From contig JAJPHO010000083.1 in the NCBI GenBank assembly GCA_021325215.1, forward strand, positions 1-40,819: a stretch of 40,819 bases of DNA, in the 5' to 3' direction. Under the pieces are notes generated by a model. It worked only from the letters and a program-made list of their open reading frames with translations, was not told the DNA's origin and did not search any database. Source of the stretch: Alphaproteobacteria bacterium. GTDB taxonomy: Bacteria; Pseudomonadota; Alphaproteobacteria; Rhodospirillales; Magnetospirillaceae. How positions within the stretch are numbered: the first letter of the stretch is position 1; each line of letters opens with the position of its first letter. The position numbers and the translations under genes were made by a program. Shown here one piece after another: positions 3,722-32,166 of the stretch.

Positions 3722-4465
3722 ATGGCATGGGAAACTGAACGCAACGCGTGGGCCGGGGCACAAGCCTCTTACGAGGTCGACGCCGGCCTGCGTCAATACA
3801 TGCTCCGAGTCTACAATTACATGGCCTCGGGCGTCGCCTTGACCGGCCTGATCGCTGCTTTGGTCGCCAATACCCCGGCTCTGACCCAGCTGTTCTTCCA
3901 GGTCGGCTATCGCGGCCATCTGGGCATGACCGGCCTGGGCTGGATCGCCACCCTGGCGCCGCTCGGCATCGTGCTGGCCTTCTCGTTCGGCCTTGCGCGG
4001 ATGAGCGCGGCGACGGCGCAGACGCTTTACTGGGTCTATGCGGCGCTGATGGGCGTCTCGATGGCCAGCATCTTTTTCGTCTATACCGGCACCAGCATCG
4101 CCCGCGTGTTCTTCATCACCGCGGCATCCTTCGCCGGTCTCAGCCTCTATGGCTACACGACCAAGAAGAACCTGTCGGCCTTCGGCAGCTTCCTGATCAT
4201 GGGCTTGATCGGCATTCTGATCGCCGGTCTGGTCAACATCTTCCTGCAGAGCTCCGCGCTCTATTTCGTGATCTCGGCGGCGGGCGTGCTGATTTTCGCC
4301 GGCCTGACCGCTTACGACACGCAGAAGATCAAGGATATGTACTGGTCGGGCGACGGCCACGAAGTGGCCAGCAAGAAGGCCGTGATGGGCGCGTTCTCGC
4401 TCTATCTCGACTTCATCAACCTGTTCATCATGCTGCTGCGCTTCTTCGGCGACCGCCGCGACTAA
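3722..4465 (+). CDS. Bax inhibitor-1/YccA family integral membrane protein
   Basis: A 247-residue polytopic inner-membrane protein with about seven hydrophobic helices from residue 35 to the C-terminus. The family signatures are visible: an N-terminal soluble stretch ending in RVYNYMASGVALTG, a central AASFAGLSLYGYTTK segment, the GLTAYDTQKIK motif near residue 200, and the LYLDFINLFIMLLRFFG tail. Bacterial relatives (YccA, YetJ) act as pH-sensitive calcium leak channels, or in YccA's case modulate FtsH. Which applies here is unknown. The gene appears monocistronic, with a divergent gene upstream and a strong hairpin terminator 24 bases after its stop. Confidence 0.92.
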   Translation: MAWETERNAWAGAQASYEVDAGLRQYMLRVYNYMASGVALTGLIAALVANTPALTQLFFQVGYRGHLGMTGLGWIATLAPLGIVLAFSFGLARMSAATAQTLYWVYAALMGVSMASIFFVYTGTSIARVFFITAASFAGLSLYGYTTKKNLSAFGSFLIMGLIGILIAGLVNIFLQSSALYFVISAAGVLIFAGLTAYDTQKIKDMYWSGDGHEVASKKAVMGAFSLYLDFINLFIMLLRFFGDRRD

Positions 4466-4488
4466 GAGGTACAGCGTTGAAAACGGAA

Positions 4489-4516
4489 AGGGCGGCTCTC
4501 GGGCCGCCCTTTTTGT
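4489..4516 (+). terminator. Rho-independent terminator after the Bax-inhibitor gene
   Basis: An 8-bp GC-rich stem (AGGGCGGC at 4489-4496 pairing with GCCGCCCT at 4503-4510) has a six-base loop and is followed by a T-rich run. It lies between two convergent genes and probably also helps stop leftward transcription, although the opposite T tract is poorer. Confidence 0.85.
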
Positions 4517-5200
4517 TTAGTCGTCGCCGTTCCTGAGCAGCGCCATTGCCTGGTTCAGCTGGCTCATGCGCTGATGGTCGCCATGGTCGCTGTCCGGATG
4601 GTGAATGGTGGCCAGCAGGCGGAACTTGGCGCGCACCGTCCTGCTGTCCGGCTTGGCGCCGGGCGAGAAGCCCAGCACATGCAAAGCGTCGCTGCGCGAG
4701 CGCACGCCATCGGGCAAAGGATCGAAGGCCAGGGTCGAAATGATGGCCCGCAGACGGTCCAGCTCATCGGCCTCGGGCTCCGCCTCGGCGAGGGGAATCA
4801 CCGGCACGGGAGGGGGTTCCGGCACCGATCGTTGCAGCGGGGCCGAGGGGTCGGAAAGGTTCACCGCCAGCCTGCCTTCCGAAAGCGCCAGGGCCAGGCC
4901 GAGGGCGCGGCGGATGAAGGGGATGGTATGGCCGGGCGGCATGCGCACCTGCAGCCGGGGCTTGCGCCGCCAGGGTCGTCCCTCAGCCGGACCGGATTTC
5001 AGAATGACCGTTTCGCGGTCGTGGCTGGGCGGTTCGCCGGGGTCGGGGAACTGCTCGACGCCCGCGGCCGGGACCACCAGCAGGACCGAGCGGGCGAGGT
5101 CGCCGACATTGACCTGACGGGACTCCGCCAGCGCCTCGACCGCCTCGCGGAAGGTGCTGGAACAGGGGACGGTGTAGGAGTGCTTCAGCGGGACCGGCAT
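4517..5200 (-). CDS. J-domain-containing protein
   Basis: A 227-residue protein whose last 60 residues form a J domain. A helix-II-like basic segment (RTVRAKFRLLATI) is followed by HHPDSD, which contains the invariant HPD tripeptide needed to stimulate DnaK ATPase, and then a helix III ending at the C-terminus. Unlike DnaJ, the J domain is C-terminal and there is no zinc-finger or G/F region. The N-terminal 160 residues hold two Pro-rich linkers and a segment (FIRRALGLALALSEG) I do not recognise. It is probably a specialised DnaK co-chaperone of unknown client. The ribosome site upstream of the ATG is weak, and a start a little downstream is possible. Confidence 0.78.
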   Translation of the reverse strand: MPVPLKHSYTVPCSSTFREAVEALAESRQVNVGDLARSVLLVVPAAGVEQFPDPGEPPSHDRETVILKSGPAEGRPWRRKPRLQVRMPPGHTIPFIRRALGLALALSEGRLAVNLSDPSAPLQRSVPEPPPVPVIPLAEAEPEADELDRLRAIISTLAFDPLPDGVRSRSDALHVLGFSPGAKPDSRTVRAKFRLLATIHHPDSDHGDHQRMSQLNQAMALLRNGDD

Positions 5201-5328
5201 GAGCTCATCGGCGGGAGAAACGGACGAATAACGTAACGAATAATCGGTTGGTTCGCCTGTTCTAACTACAAAAGTATGTCGATGAGGTTAAACCTACGGA
5301 GGACGAGACCCGGCGGCCCGAAACGGGT
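5201..5328. other. spacer upstream of the J-domain gene: short direct repeat and small palindrome
   Basis: The octamer ACGAATAA occurs twice with a 12-base period (5224-5231 and 5236-5243), and the 11-base palindrome AGGTTAAACCT lies at 5285-5295. No gene is seen. The repeats could be regulator sites for the J-domain gene, but nothing identifies the factor. Confidence 0.3.
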
Positions 5329-5414
5329 AAAAAAAGGGCCGGTGGAAAACCACCGGCCTGAGCTTAGGGAGGAAACGTCCAAGAAAGGTACTGAATGACA
5401 AGTCATTCGGTACG
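5329..5414 (-). ncRNA. small regulatory RNA resembling suhB/mmgR (alpha-r8) family
   Basis: On the minus strand three elements follow each other within about 86 bases. First is a 5' hairpin (arms 5388-5399 and 5402-5413, one C/A mismatch, two-base loop). Next is an unpaired linker containing CTTGGACGTTTCCTCCCT (5364-5383), with the anti-Shine-Dalgarno-like core TTTCCTCCCT. Last is a perfect 9-bp terminator hairpin (5337-5345 with 5350-5358, AAAA on the plus-strand loop) followed by seven T residues. From memory this architecture and the TTTCCTCCC core are diagnostic of the alphaproteobacterial suhB/mmgR family, in which mmgR affects polyhydroxybutyrate granules. A plausible promoter sits directly upstream. 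No protein-coding gene is terminated by this hairpin, which supports an independent RNA. Confidence 0.68.
5337..5358 (-). terminator. terminator hairpin of the small RNA
   Basis: A perfect 9-bp stem, GGCCGGTGG with CCACCGGCC, has a four-base loop. On the minus strand it is followed by seven consecutive T residues (5329-5335), a textbook intrinsic terminator for leftward transcription. Confidence 0.88.
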
Positions 5415-5420
5415 GACACG

Positions 5421-5450
5421 ACTATGCCACCGAAGCTTGCTGCGGTGCAA
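5421..5450 (-). promoter_or_regulatory. candidate promoter of the small RNA
   Basis: Minus-strand TTGCAC (5445-5450) and CATAGT (5421-5426) are 18 bases apart and would place the start near 5414, exactly at the foot of the first hairpin. The -35 match is weak, so position relative to the RNA is the main support. Confidence 0.4.
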
Positions 5451-5504
5451 CATCAGATGCCCTGTCCGGCTTGCATGGCTGGCATGAGAGGAGTGAGAGC
5501 AACC

Positions 5505-5804
5505 ATGTTTCCACAGCGTATTCTCCGTTTCGCCGCGCCGCTGGCCGCGATCCTGGCCCTGACCGCCTGCGGCGACGGCGGCGAGCCTTCGCAGCAGGAC
5601 ATCCAGGCGGCGCTGGGCGCTTCGAAGGAACTGCCGGCCGATCCCTCGATCCAGGTCGAGAAGATGCGCTGCGCCCCGGCCCCCGGCGACAAGCAGGCCT
5701 TCCTCTGCCGCTACCGCTTTCCGCCGGCCGATCCCATCGACGGCATCTTCAAGAAGGATGGCGCCGCCTGGCGCCATGTCGGCGACGCGCCGGCCAAGCA
5801 ATAA
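5505..5804 (+). CDS. small predicted lipoprotein of unknown function
   Basis: A 99-residue protein with a lipoprotein signal: a basic start, a hydrophobic core, and an LTAC lipobox with Cys22 as the lipidation site. The mature part is short and has two further cysteines in KMRCAPA and FLCRYRF, which could form a disulfide in the periplasm. I do not recognise a family. The ATG at 5505 is chosen over the upstream in-frame ATG near 5424 because GAGAGGAG precedes it and the lipobox then lies at the normal distance. A strong hairpin terminator follows immediately, so it is probably monocistronic. Confidence 0.72.
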   Translation: MFPQRILRFAAPLAAILALTACGDGGEPSQQDIQAALGASKELPADPSIQVEKMRCAPAPGDKQAFLCRYRFPPADPIDGIFKKDGAAWRHVGDAPAKQ

Positions 5805-5807
5805 ACA

Positions 5808-5839
5808 AAAGGGCCGGTTTCTGGGGGGACCGGCCCTTT
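5808..5839 (+). terminator. terminator after the small lipoprotein gene
   Basis: An 11-bp stem (AAAGGGCCGGT at 5808-5818 with ACCGGCCCTTT at 5829-5839) starts three bases after the stop codon. The T run is only three long, but the flanking A/T symmetry suggests action in both directions. Confidence 0.75.
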
Positions 5840-5913
5840 CGTACTGTTCGCCATCGCCACCGCGCCGGTAAAGAATCTGGCCCGATCCTGCAATCAGCTT
5901 GTCGAAGCGATCG

Positions 5914-5953
5914 AAAACAAAAGGGGCCAGCCCGTCGTCCGAGCCAGCCCCTT
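5914..5953 (-). terminator. terminator of the tRNA-Thr unit
   Basis: On the minus strand a long stem of about 14 pairs, including G-U wobbles, is formed by AAGGGGC (5921-5927) and GCCCCTT (5947-5953) plus the inner arms around a five-base loop. It is followed by TTTTGTTTT. It starts ten bases beyond the tRNA 3' end. Confidence 0.8.
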
Positions 5954-5962
5954 CGTATTGGA

Positions 5963-6037
<75 letters not shown>

Positions 6038-6049
6038 GCCGAGGGCCGG

Positions 6050-6078
6050 AAGCTAACGGTTTCGGGAAAAAATCGCAA
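6050..6078 (-). promoter_or_regulatory. candidate promoter of tRNA-Thr
   Basis: Minus-strand TTGCGA (6073-6078) and TAGCTT (6050-6055) are spaced by 17 bases and lie 12 bases ahead of the mature tRNA 5' end. The -10 match is poor, so spacing and position are the main support. Confidence 0.35.
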
Positions 6079-6119
6079 GAGTTCGAATCGGCGGCCGGAT
6101 TCTGCTGGAAATTAAATAG

Positions 6120-6136
6120 TTAGCTTGCTAGATAAT
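6120..6136 (+). promoter_or_regulatory. SlyA-type operator overlapping a -10 element
   Basis: TTAGCTTGCTAG at 6120-6131 reads CTAGCAAGCTAA on the other strand, 11 of 12 bases identical to the SlyA consensus TTAGCAAGCTAA as I remember it. It abuts GATAAT (6131-6136), a good -10 hexamer seven bases before the ATG of the MarR/SlyA gene. This arrangement implies autoregulation of the regulator and of the efflux genes behind it. Confidence 0.65.
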
Positions 6137-6143
6137 TGCCGTC

Positions 6144-6602
6144 ATGACCCAGGATCGCCGCAGGAACGAGCGGGAGATGATCTCGCTGCTCACCATCGTC
6201 AGCCGCTCTTATCGCAAGGTGGTGAATCGTATTCTGGCGGCGCACGGCCTGTCGGATTCGCAGGCTTTGCCGATCCTGCTGCTGGGCCGGCTCGGCGACG
6301 GGGTGCGCACCGGCGTGCTGGCCGAGCATGTCGGCGTCGAGGTGCCCTCGCTGATCCGTCAGATCGATCAGCTATGCGCCGCCGGGCTGGTGGAGCGGCG
6401 CGACGATCCCGCCGACGGGCGCGCCAAGACCCTGCACCTGACCGAGGCTGGCCGGGCCCAGGCCGCGGTGATCGAGACTCTGTTCCTGGATGTCAGGAAG
6501 CGGATGTTGTGGCATATCAACGATGAAGATTTAACCGCGATGCTGTCGGCGCTGCGCGAGTTCGACGCGGCGCTGGCCGCCGAGACCGCCGAGAAGGGGT
6601 AA
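6144..6602 (+). CDS. MarR/SlyA-family transcriptional regulator
   Basis: A 152-residue winged-helix regulator. After an N-terminal dimerisation helix, the recognition region AEHVGVEVPSLIRQIDQLCAAG (about residues 54-75) is followed by the wing VERRDDPADGRAKTLHLTEAG, the canonical MarR DxRxR-like wing with its Arg pair. It heads a tightly spaced operon encoding a FUSC/DUF1656/HlyD/OMF efflux system, the same partner set found next to slyA in enterobacteria. A SlyA-box-like palindrome covers its promoter. No Shine-Dalgarno sequence precedes the ATG, and the -10 hexamer ends seven bases before it, so the mRNA may be leaderless. It probably represses the efflux operon and releases it on binding an aromatic compound. 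Confidence 0.9.
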   Translation: MTQDRRRNEREMISLLTIVSRSYRKVVNRILAAHGLSDSQALPILLLGRLGDGVRTGVLAEHVGVEVPSLIRQIDQLCAAGLVERRDDPADGRAKTLHLTEAGRAQAAVIETLFLDVRKRMLWHINDEDLTAMLSALREFDAALAAETAEKG

Positions 6603-6608
6603 GGGGGA

Positions 6609-8645
6609 ATGTCCATTCTGGACCATGTGCCCAAGCTGGACCGTGTCGCGGTCCTGTTCTCGATCAACTGCTTCGCGGCGGCCGCCCTGGCGCTGGCGAT
6701 CGGTTTCGGCCTCGATCTGCCGCGTCCCTATTGGGCGGTGCTGACCGTCTATATCACCAGCCAGCCTCTGGCCGGCGGCGTGCGCTCGAAGGCGATCTTC
6801 CGCCTGATCGGAACCTTCACGGGCGCCCTGTTCACCGTTTTCGTGCTGCCGCCTCTGGTCAACGAGCCCTGGCTGCTGATCACCGCGCTGGGCGTCTGGG
6901 TCGGCGGCTGCCTGGGCGTCTCGCTGCTCGACCGCAGCCCACGCGCCTATATGCTGATGCTGGCCGGCTATACGGCCACCCTGATCGGTTTCCCGACCGT
7001 CGATCATCCAGGGCAGATTTTCGATGTCGCCGTGTCGCGCGTCGAGGAGATCTCGCTCGGCATCGTCTGCGCCACCATCACCCACAGCCTGTTCTTCCCG
7101 CGTCCGGTCGGCGCCGTGCTGAAACTGCGCCTGGCCGCCTGGCTCAAGGATGCCGACGCCTGGGCGCTGAGCATCCTGCGCCCCAATGAGGGCGAGACGG
7201 TCTCCGACCGGCGGCATCTGGCGGTGGCGGCCACCGAGATCCACATGCTGTCCCTGCTGCTGCCGTTCGACACCTCGGCGCTGCGCGATACGGTGGATAC
7301 GGTGCGGGCCATCCATCACCGTTTCCTCACCCTGATCCCGGTGCTGTCGGGCGTCGAGGACCGCCTCCAGGCCTTGCGCGCGCAAGGCGGCGGCATAGAC
7401 GGCCCGACCCGCGAGGCGATGGCGGCCGTGGTCGGGTGGATAGAGGGCGGCGCCGATTACCAGGCGTCGCGGTCGCTGCATCGCCGGATCGAAGAGTGGA
7501 AATCGCTCAATCATGGCGCCGATTGGGCGGCATTGCTGCGTCTCAGCCTGTTCAGCCGAATGCAGGATCTGCTGATCGATCTGGGCGAAGGCCATCTGCT
7601 GCATAACGCGCTGCATGCTCCGCCCGGACCCCTGCCGGCCGAATTGTCGGAGCCTTTGTCGAAGCGGACACGCAAGCGTCTGCACAGCGATGTCGGGCTG
7701 GCCGCCTTGTCGGGCCTGTCGGCCTTTCTCACCATCGTGATCGTCTGCGCCCTGTGGATCGGCACCGGCTGGCCGGACGGCACCTCGGCGGCGGCGCTGG
7801 CCGGCGTCTATTGCGCCCTGTTCGCCGCGCTCGACGATCCCGCGCCGGCGATCAAGGGATTCGGCATAATGTTCGCTGTCGGCATTCCGCTCGCCGCGGT
7901 GTTTCAATTCGCCGTCCTGCCTGGCATCGACGGACTGCCGTTGCTGCTGTTTTTCATCGCGCCGGTGTTCCTGGTCGGCGGATATCTGGTACCCGGGCGC
8001 AAAACCGGCGGTCCCGCCACGGCCTTCAATATCGCCTTCGCCAGCGCGTTGGCCCTGCAGGAAACCTACACGGCGGACTTCGCCGCTTTCGTGAATTCCA
8101 ATGCGGCGATCTATGTCTCGCTGTTCATCGCCGTGCTGGTCACCCGCGCCATCCGGTCGATCAGCGTCGATACCGCAGCGCACCGCCTGCTGCTGCGCAC
8201 CTGGAAGCAATTGGCGGCCTTGGCCCGCAATCCGGGGGTGGTGGATTCCACCGAACTGGCCGCCGAGATGGTCGATCGCCTCGGCCTGCTGGCGCCCAAG
8301 CTGGCGGCGACGCAATCCTCCAGCGTCAGCGGCAAGGATGTCCTGACCGATCTGCGCGTCGGCATGAACATCGCCCTGGTCCAGCGATACCGCGCCAGCC
8401 TGCCGCCCGAACAGGGCGCGCGGCTGAGCGATCTTTTGCAGCGGGTCGGCGCCCATTTCGCGTCTCTGACCGAAAAGCGCGAGCCGCTGCCCGCTTCTGC
8501 CATTCTGCCCGCTTTGGATTCCTGCCTGCGCGCCGCCCTCACTGCGTCCGCCGCCGGCCAGGAGCGGCAGGACGGCATCGCCGCCCTGGTCGGGCTGCGC
8601 CGCAATCTCTTCCCCGAGGCTCCCGCTTTTGCAGAGGCCGTGTAA
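6609..8645 (+). CDS. FUSC-family inner membrane efflux protein (AaeB/YdhK-like)
   Basis: A 678-residue inner membrane protein with two clusters of membrane helices (about residues 15-165 and 350-510), separated and followed by cytoplasmic helical domains. This is the duplicated FUSC layout. The N-terminal RPYWAVLTVYITSQPLAGG segment is the typical first FUSC motif of aromatic-acid exporters. With the DUF1656, HlyD-like and outer membrane proteins encoded downstream it should form a tripartite pump that exports small aromatic or amphipathic compounds to the outside. The gene begins six bases after the regulator stop with AAGGGGG at the ribosome site, and its stop overlaps the next start. Confidence 0.92.
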   Translation: MSILDHVPKLDRVAVLFSINCFAAAALALAIGFGLDLPRPYWAVLTVYITSQPLAGGVRSKAIFRLIGTFTGALFTVFVLPPLVNEPWLLITALGVWVGGCLGVSLLDRSPRAYMLMLAGYTATLIGFPTVDHPGQIFDVAVSRVEEISLGIVCATITHSLFFPRPVGAVLKLRLAAWLKDADAWALSILRPNEGETVSDRRHLAVAATEIHMLSLLLPFDTSALRDTVDTVRAIHHRFLTLIPVLSGVEDRLQALRAQGGGIDGPTREAMAAVVGWIEGGADYQASRSLHRRIEEWKSLNHGADWAALLRLSLFSRMQDLLIDLGEGHLLHNALHAPPGPLPAELSEPLSKRTRKRLHSDVGLAALSGLSAFLTIVIVCALWIGTGWPDGTSAAALAGVYCALFAALDDPAPAIKGFGIMFAVGIPLAAVFQFAVLPGIDGLPLLLFFIAPVFLVGGYLVPGRKTGGPATAFNIAFASALALQETYTADFAAFVNSNAAIYVSLFIAVLVTRAIRSISVDTAAHRLLLRTWKQLAALARNPGVVDSTELAAEMVDRLGLLAPKLAATQSSSVSGKDVLTDLRVGMNIALVQRYRASLPPEQGARLSDLLQRVGAHFASLTEKREPLPASAILPALDSCLRAALTASAAGQERQDGIAALVGLRRNLFPEAPAFAEAV

Positions 8646-8848
8646 TGACCAATGAAATCGACATCGCCGGTATCTTTCTCTCCACGATGGTGCCGACGGC
8701 CATCGCCTCCCTGTTCCTCACCTGGTGCGTGCGCAAGCTGCTGGGCGGGGCCGGGGTCTATCATTACATCTGGCATCCCGCTTTGTTCGATGCCGCGCTT
8801 TTCCTCATTCTGTGGGCGGTCGTCATCGCCCTGCCCGTGAAGGTCTGA
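8645..8848 (+). CDS. DUF1656 small membrane protein (AaeX/YdhI-like)
   Basis: A 67-residue protein with two membrane helices (roughly residues 8-28 and 45-65) separated by a short loop containing GGAGVYHYIWHPALFD, which is the recognisable DUF1656 core. Genes for such proteins are almost always found between FUSC and HlyD genes, as in aaeXAB and ydhIJK. Its exact job in the pump is unknown. The start overlaps the FUSC stop (TAATG) and the HlyD gene begins two bases after its own stop, so it is fully embedded in the operon. Confidence 0.9.
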   Translation: MTNEIDIAGIFLSTMVPTAIASLFLTWCVRKLLGGAGVYHYIWHPALFDAALFLILWAVVIALPVKV

Positions 8849-8850
8849 CC

Positions 8851-9867
8851 ATGCCGAACTTCAAGCCTTTCCTTCAATCCGCCGTTCGTGTCGGCATCAC
8901 GCTGGTCGTCGTCGCCGTCGGTGTATTCGCCGGCCGCAAGGTGTGGCTGCATTATCAGACCGAGCCCTGGACCCGCGACGGGCGGGTTCGCGCCGACGTG
9001 GTCGAGATCGCCCCCGACGTCACCGGCCTGGTGACCTCGGTCTCGGTCGTGCACGATCAGACGGTCAAGCGCGGCCAGCTGCTGTTCACCATCGACCGCG
9101 ACCGCTATGAACTGGCGTTGCGCCAGGCCGATGCGGCGATCACGACCGCCGAAGCCACCATCGGGGTGCAGAAGGCCAACATCACGGTGCAGAAGGCCAA
9201 CATCGCCAGCCATCGCGCCGCCCTGGCGGAAGCGCAGCGCGAGGCGGCGCGTAACGACACTCTGGCTTCGCTTGTTTCACGTGAAGTCACCGAGCAGAGC
9301 CATACCAAGGTGACCGAGGAACAGGCGGCGGTCGCCCAGAGCGAAGCCGCCGTCGCCCAGGCCGAAGCGGCTGTCACCCAGGCCGAGGCCGCTTCGGGCC
9401 AGGCCCAGGCGGCGCGCGCCGTCGCCGCGCTGAATCTCGACCGTACCGAGGTGAAGGCGCCGACCGACGGCTATCTGTCCGACGTCACCGTGCGGGTCGG
9501 CGATTATGTCGCGCCGGGCAAGGGGGTGATGGCGCTGGTTGACGCCGCCTCGGTGCGCGTCGAGGGTTATTTCGAGGAAACCAAGATGCCCCGCCTGCAT
9601 GTCGGCCAGGCGGTCGAAGTCCATCTGATGGGCGAGGATACTCTGCTGCACGGCCATATCCAGAGCATCTCGCCGGCCATCGAGGACCGCGAACGCGGTC
9701 CCTCGGCCTCGATGCTGCCCAACGTCAACCCGACCTTCAGCTGGGTGCGCCTGGCCCAGCGCATCCCGGTGCGCATCGCCCTCGACAAGGTGCCGGCCGG
9801 CATCCGCCTGATCGCCGGCCGCACCGCCAGCGTGACCGCCTTGACGGAGGCGGAGGGCAGCAAATGA
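8851..9867 (+). CDS. HlyD/EmrA-type periplasmic adaptor (membrane fusion protein)
   Basis: A 338-residue adaptor anchored by one N-terminal helix (residues 10-28). The first half of the lipoyl domain (RADVVEIAPDVTGLVTSVSV) is followed by a long alpha-helical hairpin (about residues 85-195) rich in Ala/Gln/Glu heptads. The second lipoyl half (DRTEVKAPTDGYLSDVTVRVGDY is split around residue 200) and a beta-barrel domain complete it. It should bridge the FUSC inner membrane protein and the outer membrane factor in the periplasm. The helical hairpin contains recent-looking 21-base duplications, and a parS-like 16-mer lies within codons 141-146. Its stop overlaps the outer membrane factor start (ATGA). 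Confidence 0.93.
   Translation: MPNFKPFLQSAVRVGITLVVVAVGVFAGRKVWLHYQTEPWTRDGRVRADVVEIAPDVTGLVTSVSVVHDQTVKRGQLLFTIDRDRYELALRQADAAITTAEATIGVQKANITVQKANIASHRAALAEAQREAARNDTLASLVSREVTEQSHTKVTEEQAAVAQSEAAVAQAEAAVTQAEAASGQAQAARAVAALNLDRTEVKAPTDGYLSDVTVRVGDYVAPGKGVMALVDAASVRVEGYFEETKMPRLHVGQAVEVHLMGEDTLLHGHIQSISPAIEDRERGPSASMLPNVNPTFSWVRLAQRIPVRIALDKVPAGIRLIAGRTASVTALTEAEGSK
9166..9204 (+). repeat. tandem 21-base repeat within the HlyD coiled-coil region
   Basis: GTGCAGAAGGCCAACATC occurs at 9166-9183 and exactly again at 9187-9204 with a three-base spacer. It adds one seven-residue heptad (VQKANIx) to the helical hairpin without breaking the frame. Confidence 0.9.
9273..9288. promoter_or_regulatory. 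parS-like ParB-binding site inside the HlyD gene
   Basis: TGTTTCACGTGAAGTC matches the near-universal parS consensus TGTTTCACGTGAAACA at 13 of 16 positions, including the perfect core GTTTCACGTGAA. The codons used (CTT GTT TCA CGT) are AT-ending and unlike the GC-ending codons around them, which suggests selection on the DNA sequence. A second similar site is at 22716-22731. Confidence 0.5.
9328..9411 (+). repeat. four degenerate 21-base repeats in the HlyD coiled coil
   Basis: Four consecutive seven-codon units of the pattern A-V-A-Q-x-E-A (9328-9348, 9349-9369, 9370-9390, 9391-9411) encode successive heptads of the helical hairpin. They diverge gradually, as expected for old internal duplications. 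Confidence 0.75.
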
Positions 9868-31952: not shown

Positions 31953-32166
31953 TCGCCCCCAGCGGGGTGTCACCGGGGGGGGGTGGATGTTGACGCCGCC
32001 AGGGGCGACCAGCCGAATTTTGGGGAAAATTTTCCCGTTCTCTATCACCATGATGCGCAAAGGACCGGTTTTATTCCCGCTGCCGGCGGAAATTTCGCCA
32101 TGCAGGAATAGGCCGGCGGGGCGGGGCGTCTCATCCTGATGCCGCTCAAGGTGAGGATTGCCGCAG
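31953..32166. other. 214-base spacer before the YceI-like gene, with a 14-base palindrome
   Basis: No gene is supported here. The stretch has a run of nine G residues near 31974, and the perfect palindrome GGGAAAATTTTCCC at 32023-32036, whose partner regulator is unknown. It may contain the promoter of the YceI-like gene, but no good hexamer pair was found. Confidence 0.5.

Follow-up and report, generated by a model that had tools for sequence, protein, structure and literature searches.

The window analysed here, a stretch of 40,819 nt of alphaproteobacterial DNA, carries on its minus strand a member of the αR8 (MmgR/suhB) family of small RNAs, with a PhaR-type operator placed over the −35 element of its predicted promoter. 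The explanation which we favour, and which we consider likely, is of an αR8 small RNA repressed by PhaR until polyhydroxybutyrate (PHB) forms, which would then lower translation by Hfq-aided pairing to ribosome-binding sites. By itself the window locus is ordinary, being a second, promoter-diverged αR8 copy added to a known family; judging from the sites predicted upstream of other copies, PhaR control of αR8 looks widespread in the class.

The family call made in the sequence-only reading, and the covariance-model check named there, were both borne out, as the Rfam model RF00519 (suhB/mmgR, αR8) matched at 5322–5396 (−) with 54.8 bits against a cut-off of 41 (cmscan of the window). The match runs end to end (model positions 1–77 of 77) with an E-value of 1e-8 over the whole window, in which the only other above-threshold Rfam match is a tRNA. 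The small RNA is predicted to be about 86 nt long (5329–5414, −), with a start at around 5414 placed from the −10 element, and the unit 5414–5329 folds at −31.5 kcal/mol (z −5.29, with 0/200 shuffles equal or better). The 5' hairpin noticed earlier is predicted in both the minimum-energy and centroid folds as GUACcGAAUGACUUGUCAUUCaGUAC (5387–5414, −), and the short hairpin of the Rfam model comes after it; in the RF00519 alignment one pair of that short hairpin is non-standard for the window copy. When folded alone, the window 5' segment has a z of −1.28, and the 5' segments of 37 genomic copies have a mean z of −2.28 with 29 of them below −1. The exposed linker is also present, as CTTGGACGTTTCCTCCCT, which is unpaired in the centroid fold and in which the 10-mer UUUCCUCCCU (5367–5376, −), identical to the αR8 10-mer and the predicted pairing seed, is open. 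The intrinsic terminator with seven T residues was found where the letters had suggested it (5329–5358, −), with a stem of 9 bp at 5358–5337 (loop TTTT) followed by seven T at 5335–5329, and it is the one terminator-like site in a scan of 5201–5505 where 0.3 were expected from shuffles. The covariance score, the 10-mer in an open linker and the Rho-independent terminator, and the agreement in core and order of parts with αR8 as described for SisA-D and MmgR, confirm that the unit is a member of the family. It should be noted that the anti-hemB RNA (RF02837) has in common with the window unit a CCUCCCU stretch between hairpins; its model scored 20.8 bits here against a cut-off of 49.5, and the unit is not a member of that family. 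The sroB, ylbH and P26 models from Rfam, which match at the same site, were all below their cut-offs.

The unit had been described as lying in a gene-free gap, and this holds for the space between a gene starting at 5200 (−), with a weak DnaJ match (20.5 bits, below the Pfam cut-off), and a small ORF with an ATG at 5505 (+), although mechanically called ORFs overlap the gap. The small ORF has no Pfam family, looks lipoprotein-like by eye, and is found in only one of 41 genomes, its own. None of the proteins encoded near the window copy matched anything in the other αR8 loci compared, and several of these queries are probably not real genes. We note that a palindrome flanked by A and T tails follows the small ORF at 5808–5839 (AAGGGCCGGT...ACCGGCCCTT, by eye), which is probably a two-way terminator with letters similar to the sRNA stem, and that 6144–9864 includes genes for a MarR-type regulator and a HlyD-type efflux subunit. 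A contig scan with the MarR-type protein gave 33 relatives, the nearest of them being Caulobacter proteins at 52–59% identity. Searching plasmids with the 75-nt unit gave five partial matches, in Roseomonas and Indioceanicola, all confined to the core, and searches of plasmids with the flank 4400–6700, of phages with the 86-nt unit, and of a collection of genome contigs with a 24-mer gave no match.

Beyond the earlier observations, we found that the genome has two αR8 copies, the one in the window (contig C24) and a second on contig C160 (L035:7239–7313) which scores higher at 64.9 bits and has two PhaR-type sites in its promoter (21.0 and 20.8 bits). Among this genome and 40 relatives, 37 of the 41 have an RF00519 match with E ≤ 0.001 and 28 have one over the cut-off. 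For a class sample of 190 genomes the corresponding numbers are 107 with a match and 86 over the cut-off, obtained with stricter filters than those used for the relatives so that weak matches were lost, and this is less often than described in PMC12559287, where αR8 is given for all Alphaproteobacteria except the Rickettsiales and with several copies in many genera. Three genes for N-formylglutamate amidohydrolase (PF05013) are found on contigs C85, C117 and C153 of the 195-contig assembly and none on C24 or C160, and the linkage between αR8 and this amidohydrolase is therefore not seen here.

The promoter is the weak point of the unit. A consensus promoter scan around the sRNA found none, and the promoter-like pair proposed earlier stands instead on an alignment with 12 other copies, which predicts TTGCAC (5450–5445), a spacer of 18 nt and CATAGT (5426–5421) on the minus strand (5421–5450 in all), set against CTTGC (−35) and TATATT-like (−10) elements in the relatives. 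The stretch 5329–5450 singled out earlier covers both the transcript and this promoter. The PhaR-type operator TGATGTTGCACCGCAGCAAGC (5435–5455, no strand assigned) was identified over this −35 element using a symmetrised weight matrix built from 15 sites in promoters listed as efficiently bound by S. meliloti PhaR (PMC12542648 Table 3), with the mmgR site, four exoH sites and the acyP site left out. Its 17.9 bits are the highest score among the 40,799 positions of the window (the next, at 32090, has 12.5 bits), and lie below the scores of all 15 training sites and of the held-out mmgR site (21.8 bits). We regard 5435–5455 as a likely promoter palindrome of the PhaR (AniA) regulon. A short pattern, TTGCNNYGCAGCAA, allowing one mismatch, matched the genome 41+46 times, compared with 29+17 times when reversed, and is thus a common one. 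PhaR, Hfq and phasins are all encoded in the genome, and PhaR-type sites were found upstream of phaR (15.6 and 12.1 bits; L143:1349–1398) and upstream of three of five phasin matches, four of which are over the cut-off (18.6–27.4 bits; L145:1361–1438, L144:1298–1318 and L147:2357–2377), with the other two lacking a site.

To judge how far this operator is conserved, we took the 38 copies over the cut-off from the genome itself, its family and its order, including that in the window, and dropped one (L029) which lacks the exact anchor. In the 105 nt upstream, 31/37 of these copies have a site scoring 12 bits or more and 6/37 have none, compared with 1/42 downstream, 8/2036 random 105-nt window segments, and one of five viral copies scored alongside. 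When a further 108 copies over the cut-off were scored class-wide, an upstream site was found in 72 and none in 36, compared with 3/108 downstream and 67/2160 dinucleotide shuffles, and the positions of these sites vary. In the class-wide copies without a PhaR site (these 36 plus L244) a recognised phage gene was found in the flanks of 0/37, many of the flanks being only 350 bases long. In some copies the operator, some 61 nt before the core, shares sequence with the 5' arm of the hairpin in the RNA, and the conservation seen there may partly be that of RNA pairing; the window operator lies outside the predicted RNA. The link between PhaR and mmgR is already known from S. meliloti, as PhaR (AniA) is reported to repress mmgR and to bind its promoter palindrome in vitro. 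We recognised no earlier report in the literature searched of a class-wide PhaR site at αR8, with two likely papers (Ceizel Borella 2018 and Lagares 2016) known to us by citation, and we claim no priority. A conserved promoter heptamer is reportedly mentioned in a published abstract.

The layout of these promoters falls into more than one pattern. A palindrome like TTGCACTGCAGCAA is found 56–63 nt upstream of the core in 26/37 copies, over the −10 element and start, and in 11 of these a second palindrome of more than 10 bits is found 85–92 nt upstream, over the −35; the window copy keeps the −35 palindrome only. In the window copy, L023 and L039 the operator precedes the core by about 80 nt. 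Further upstream, the window has a dyad CATGCCAGCCATGC (5473–5486, no strand assigned) like the CATGGCTGCCATGC found upstream of αR8 in L023 and L009/L043, and in these and the window the dyad, or something near it, is 109–121 nt upstream of the core; L039 has a weaker dyad. The 5' hairpins of the window copy, L023, L039 and L009/L043 differ in their letters and are all hairpins. Allowing one mismatch, the upstream dyad is found at 17 places in the genome against 2 in the control, and of the 15 loci which were read, one of which is the window locus itself, most look like coding DNA by eye.

Compared with known systems, the window copy shares with S. meliloti MmgR the covariance family, the 10-mer core and the terminator, and TGCACCGCAGCA from the PhaR site of S. 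meliloti mmgR as given in PMC12542648 Table 3 is identical in the window. In contrast, the operator covers the −35 element in the window and is near the start in S. meliloti mmgR (position 13 in the same table), the 5' hairpin is another one, there is a second copy in the genome, and the contig has no N-formylglutamate amidohydrolase gene. The SisA-D RNAs of Caulobacter crescentus have the same core and layout and likewise occur as several copies per genome (PMC12559287), but whereas that account gives no common upstream motif for them, the window has a predicted PhaR-type site.

It is possible, though we think it rather unlikely, that this αR8 copy has escaped from PhaR and is governed by another signal acting through the dyad at 5473–5486, with the −35 site being a remnant. 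The PhaR score is lower than those in the other copy in the genome (17.9 against 21.0 and 20.8 bits) and the proximal operator is absent, the dyad is common to L023 and L009/L043 with L009 having no PhaR site (4.7 bits), and unrelated promoters are reported for Caulobacter SisA-D (PMC12559287). However, no window position scores higher than this PhaR-type site, which takes in the −35, and L023, which has the same layout, has a PhaR-type site of 24.7 bits.

Less probable again is that the window has a degenerate αR8 copy which has lost transcription or function, as might be suggested by a covariance score ten bits or so below that of the other copy (54.8 against 64.9), a promoter weak by consensus, and an adjacent ORF found in none of the other genomes among the 41. 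Against this, the core, terminator and 5' hairpin (in other letters) are intact and the operator has been kept. We regard it as very improbable that the unit makes no RNA of its own and serves an adjacent gene as leader or terminator: the same-strand gene with the weak DnaJ match does start 128 nt downstream, but the end-to-end covariance match over the cut-off and the terminator before that gene already make this unlikely.

Our preferred explanation, of a PhaR-repressed αR8 small RNA, would have PhaR sitting on the −35 element and repressing the gene while the polymer is absent. Once granules form, the RNA of about 86 nt would be made and would end at its own terminator, and the exposed UUUCCUCCCU, aided by Hfq, would pair to ribosome-binding sites rich in purines, thereby reducing translation, the likely targets probably being carbon-storage or uptake genes. 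We infer the repression, pairing and use of Hfq from what is reported for S. meliloti and Caulobacter; an RNA of the Hfq type, produced once PhaR is released by PHB, is to be expected because of the behaviour of SisA and MmgR and because the Hfq, PhaR and phasin genes are present. In Caulobacter, SisA (αR8) is reported to repress fusions to mRNA leaders and to be sponged by CrfA (PMC12559287), and in S. meliloti MmgR is reported to lower phasins and PHB with the direct target unproven. NtrC input is known for S. meliloti mmgR and may bear on this explanation.

The direct pairing of CCUCCC with ribosome-binding sites, as suggested in the sequence-only reading, fits the SisA report, but the duplex energies for the phasin leaders are no better than those for ordinary ORF starts in the window. 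These energies are −20.9, −17.2 and −10.8 for the phasin leaders and −11.4 for phaR, and do not stand out among those for 44 ORF starts of the window, which have a median of −18.5 and a best value of −28.9. The complement of the 13-nt core, with up to one mismatch, is found in two places in the genome besides the two sRNA genes, compared with 3 when reversed, and there is thus no excess; the two places are the leaders of zwf-like and peptidase-like genes (named by eye from translations). In the zwf-like leader (L057; contig C175, 28310–28322) 12/13 letters match the core complement, again with no excess over the control. For S. meliloti, PMC12542648 Table 3 includes zwf among the genes with a PhaR site, in this case a weakly bound one. 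The sequence GGGAGGAAA is found before ATG in 15 matches (14 places) against 0 in the control, a count which we do not take as evidence because this is a good Shine-Dalgarno sequence as such. AGGAGAGG and GAGGAG leaders had been remarked upon in several window genes from the letters alone. A CrfA-like sponge RNA was not found in the genome using short patterns.

Copies of αR8 type were also found in phage sequences. A 21-nt core was found in 10 stretches of viral contigs, 5/10 of which are over the RF00519 cut-off, and a second pattern, modelled on the variant TTGGGCG...NGACT, gave at least 120 matches, of which 80 were listed. It should be noted that the search pattern fixed the core and so only the context and flanks are independent. 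Among the matches listed there are 89 viral loci, duplicates kept, and a NusG-like, replication, HNH or terminase cluster is within 1.6 kb in 33 of these, a NusG-like gene is upstream on the same strand in 19, and a NusG-like gene upstream is combined with HNH or terminase downstream in 13, while 56 have none of those clusters and may have host flanks (clusters were named from PHROG/Pfam matches for some members, from annotated records, and otherwise by eye). All 15 loci chosen for their phage neighbours are over the RF00519 cut-off, at 41.4–72.7 bits (examples of viral copies include L064:1690–1775, L290:12000–12076, L320:3840–3916 and L395:3988–4068). In 23 aligned phage copies, 6/13 consensus pairs are changed on both sides, the terminator being outside of the consensus. 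In the Bradyrhizobium phage ppBeUSDA76-1 the copy (62.8 bits) lies between a phrog_6386 match and HNH/terminase genes, and the upstream protein is annotated otherwise but matches phrog_6386, an antiterminator; ppBdUSDA122-1 has the same context with a copy below the cut-off, and BDU-MI-1 is a further match. In the Microcystis phages Mwe-JY08 (62.8 bits) and vB_MweS-yong2 (47.0 bits) the copies follow peptidase or lysozyme genes, and these differing contexts argue against one fixed place. A PhaR site was found in 0/31 copies with phage neighbours and in 3/86 when all viral copies having sufficient flank are counted, in both cases among the matches listed; we use these copies as a negative control for the operator. 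A literature search on phage αR8 RNAs found nothing on point.

This leads us to a tentative suggestion, which we hold as possible rather than probable, that αR8 is one family with two lives. The chromosomal copies, many with a PhaR operator, would report carbon storage, and the copies in phages of Alphaproteobacteria, mostly PhaR-free, would in part be late-operon leaders released as small RNAs when there is no antiterminator. With the same seed, a prophage might then take part in the carbon network run by αR8 in the host; alternatively, such leaders might be the origin of the host family. For the late-leader placement, a comparison may be made with the lambda 6S RNA found between pR' and tR'.

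If the phage copies are confirmed as RNAs, a core regulator of the host would be carried in phage genomes, in some of them at the late-leader position. For the family as a whole, the apparent PhaR–αR8 wiring across the class would allow a circuit from storage to sRNA to be tested in many species.
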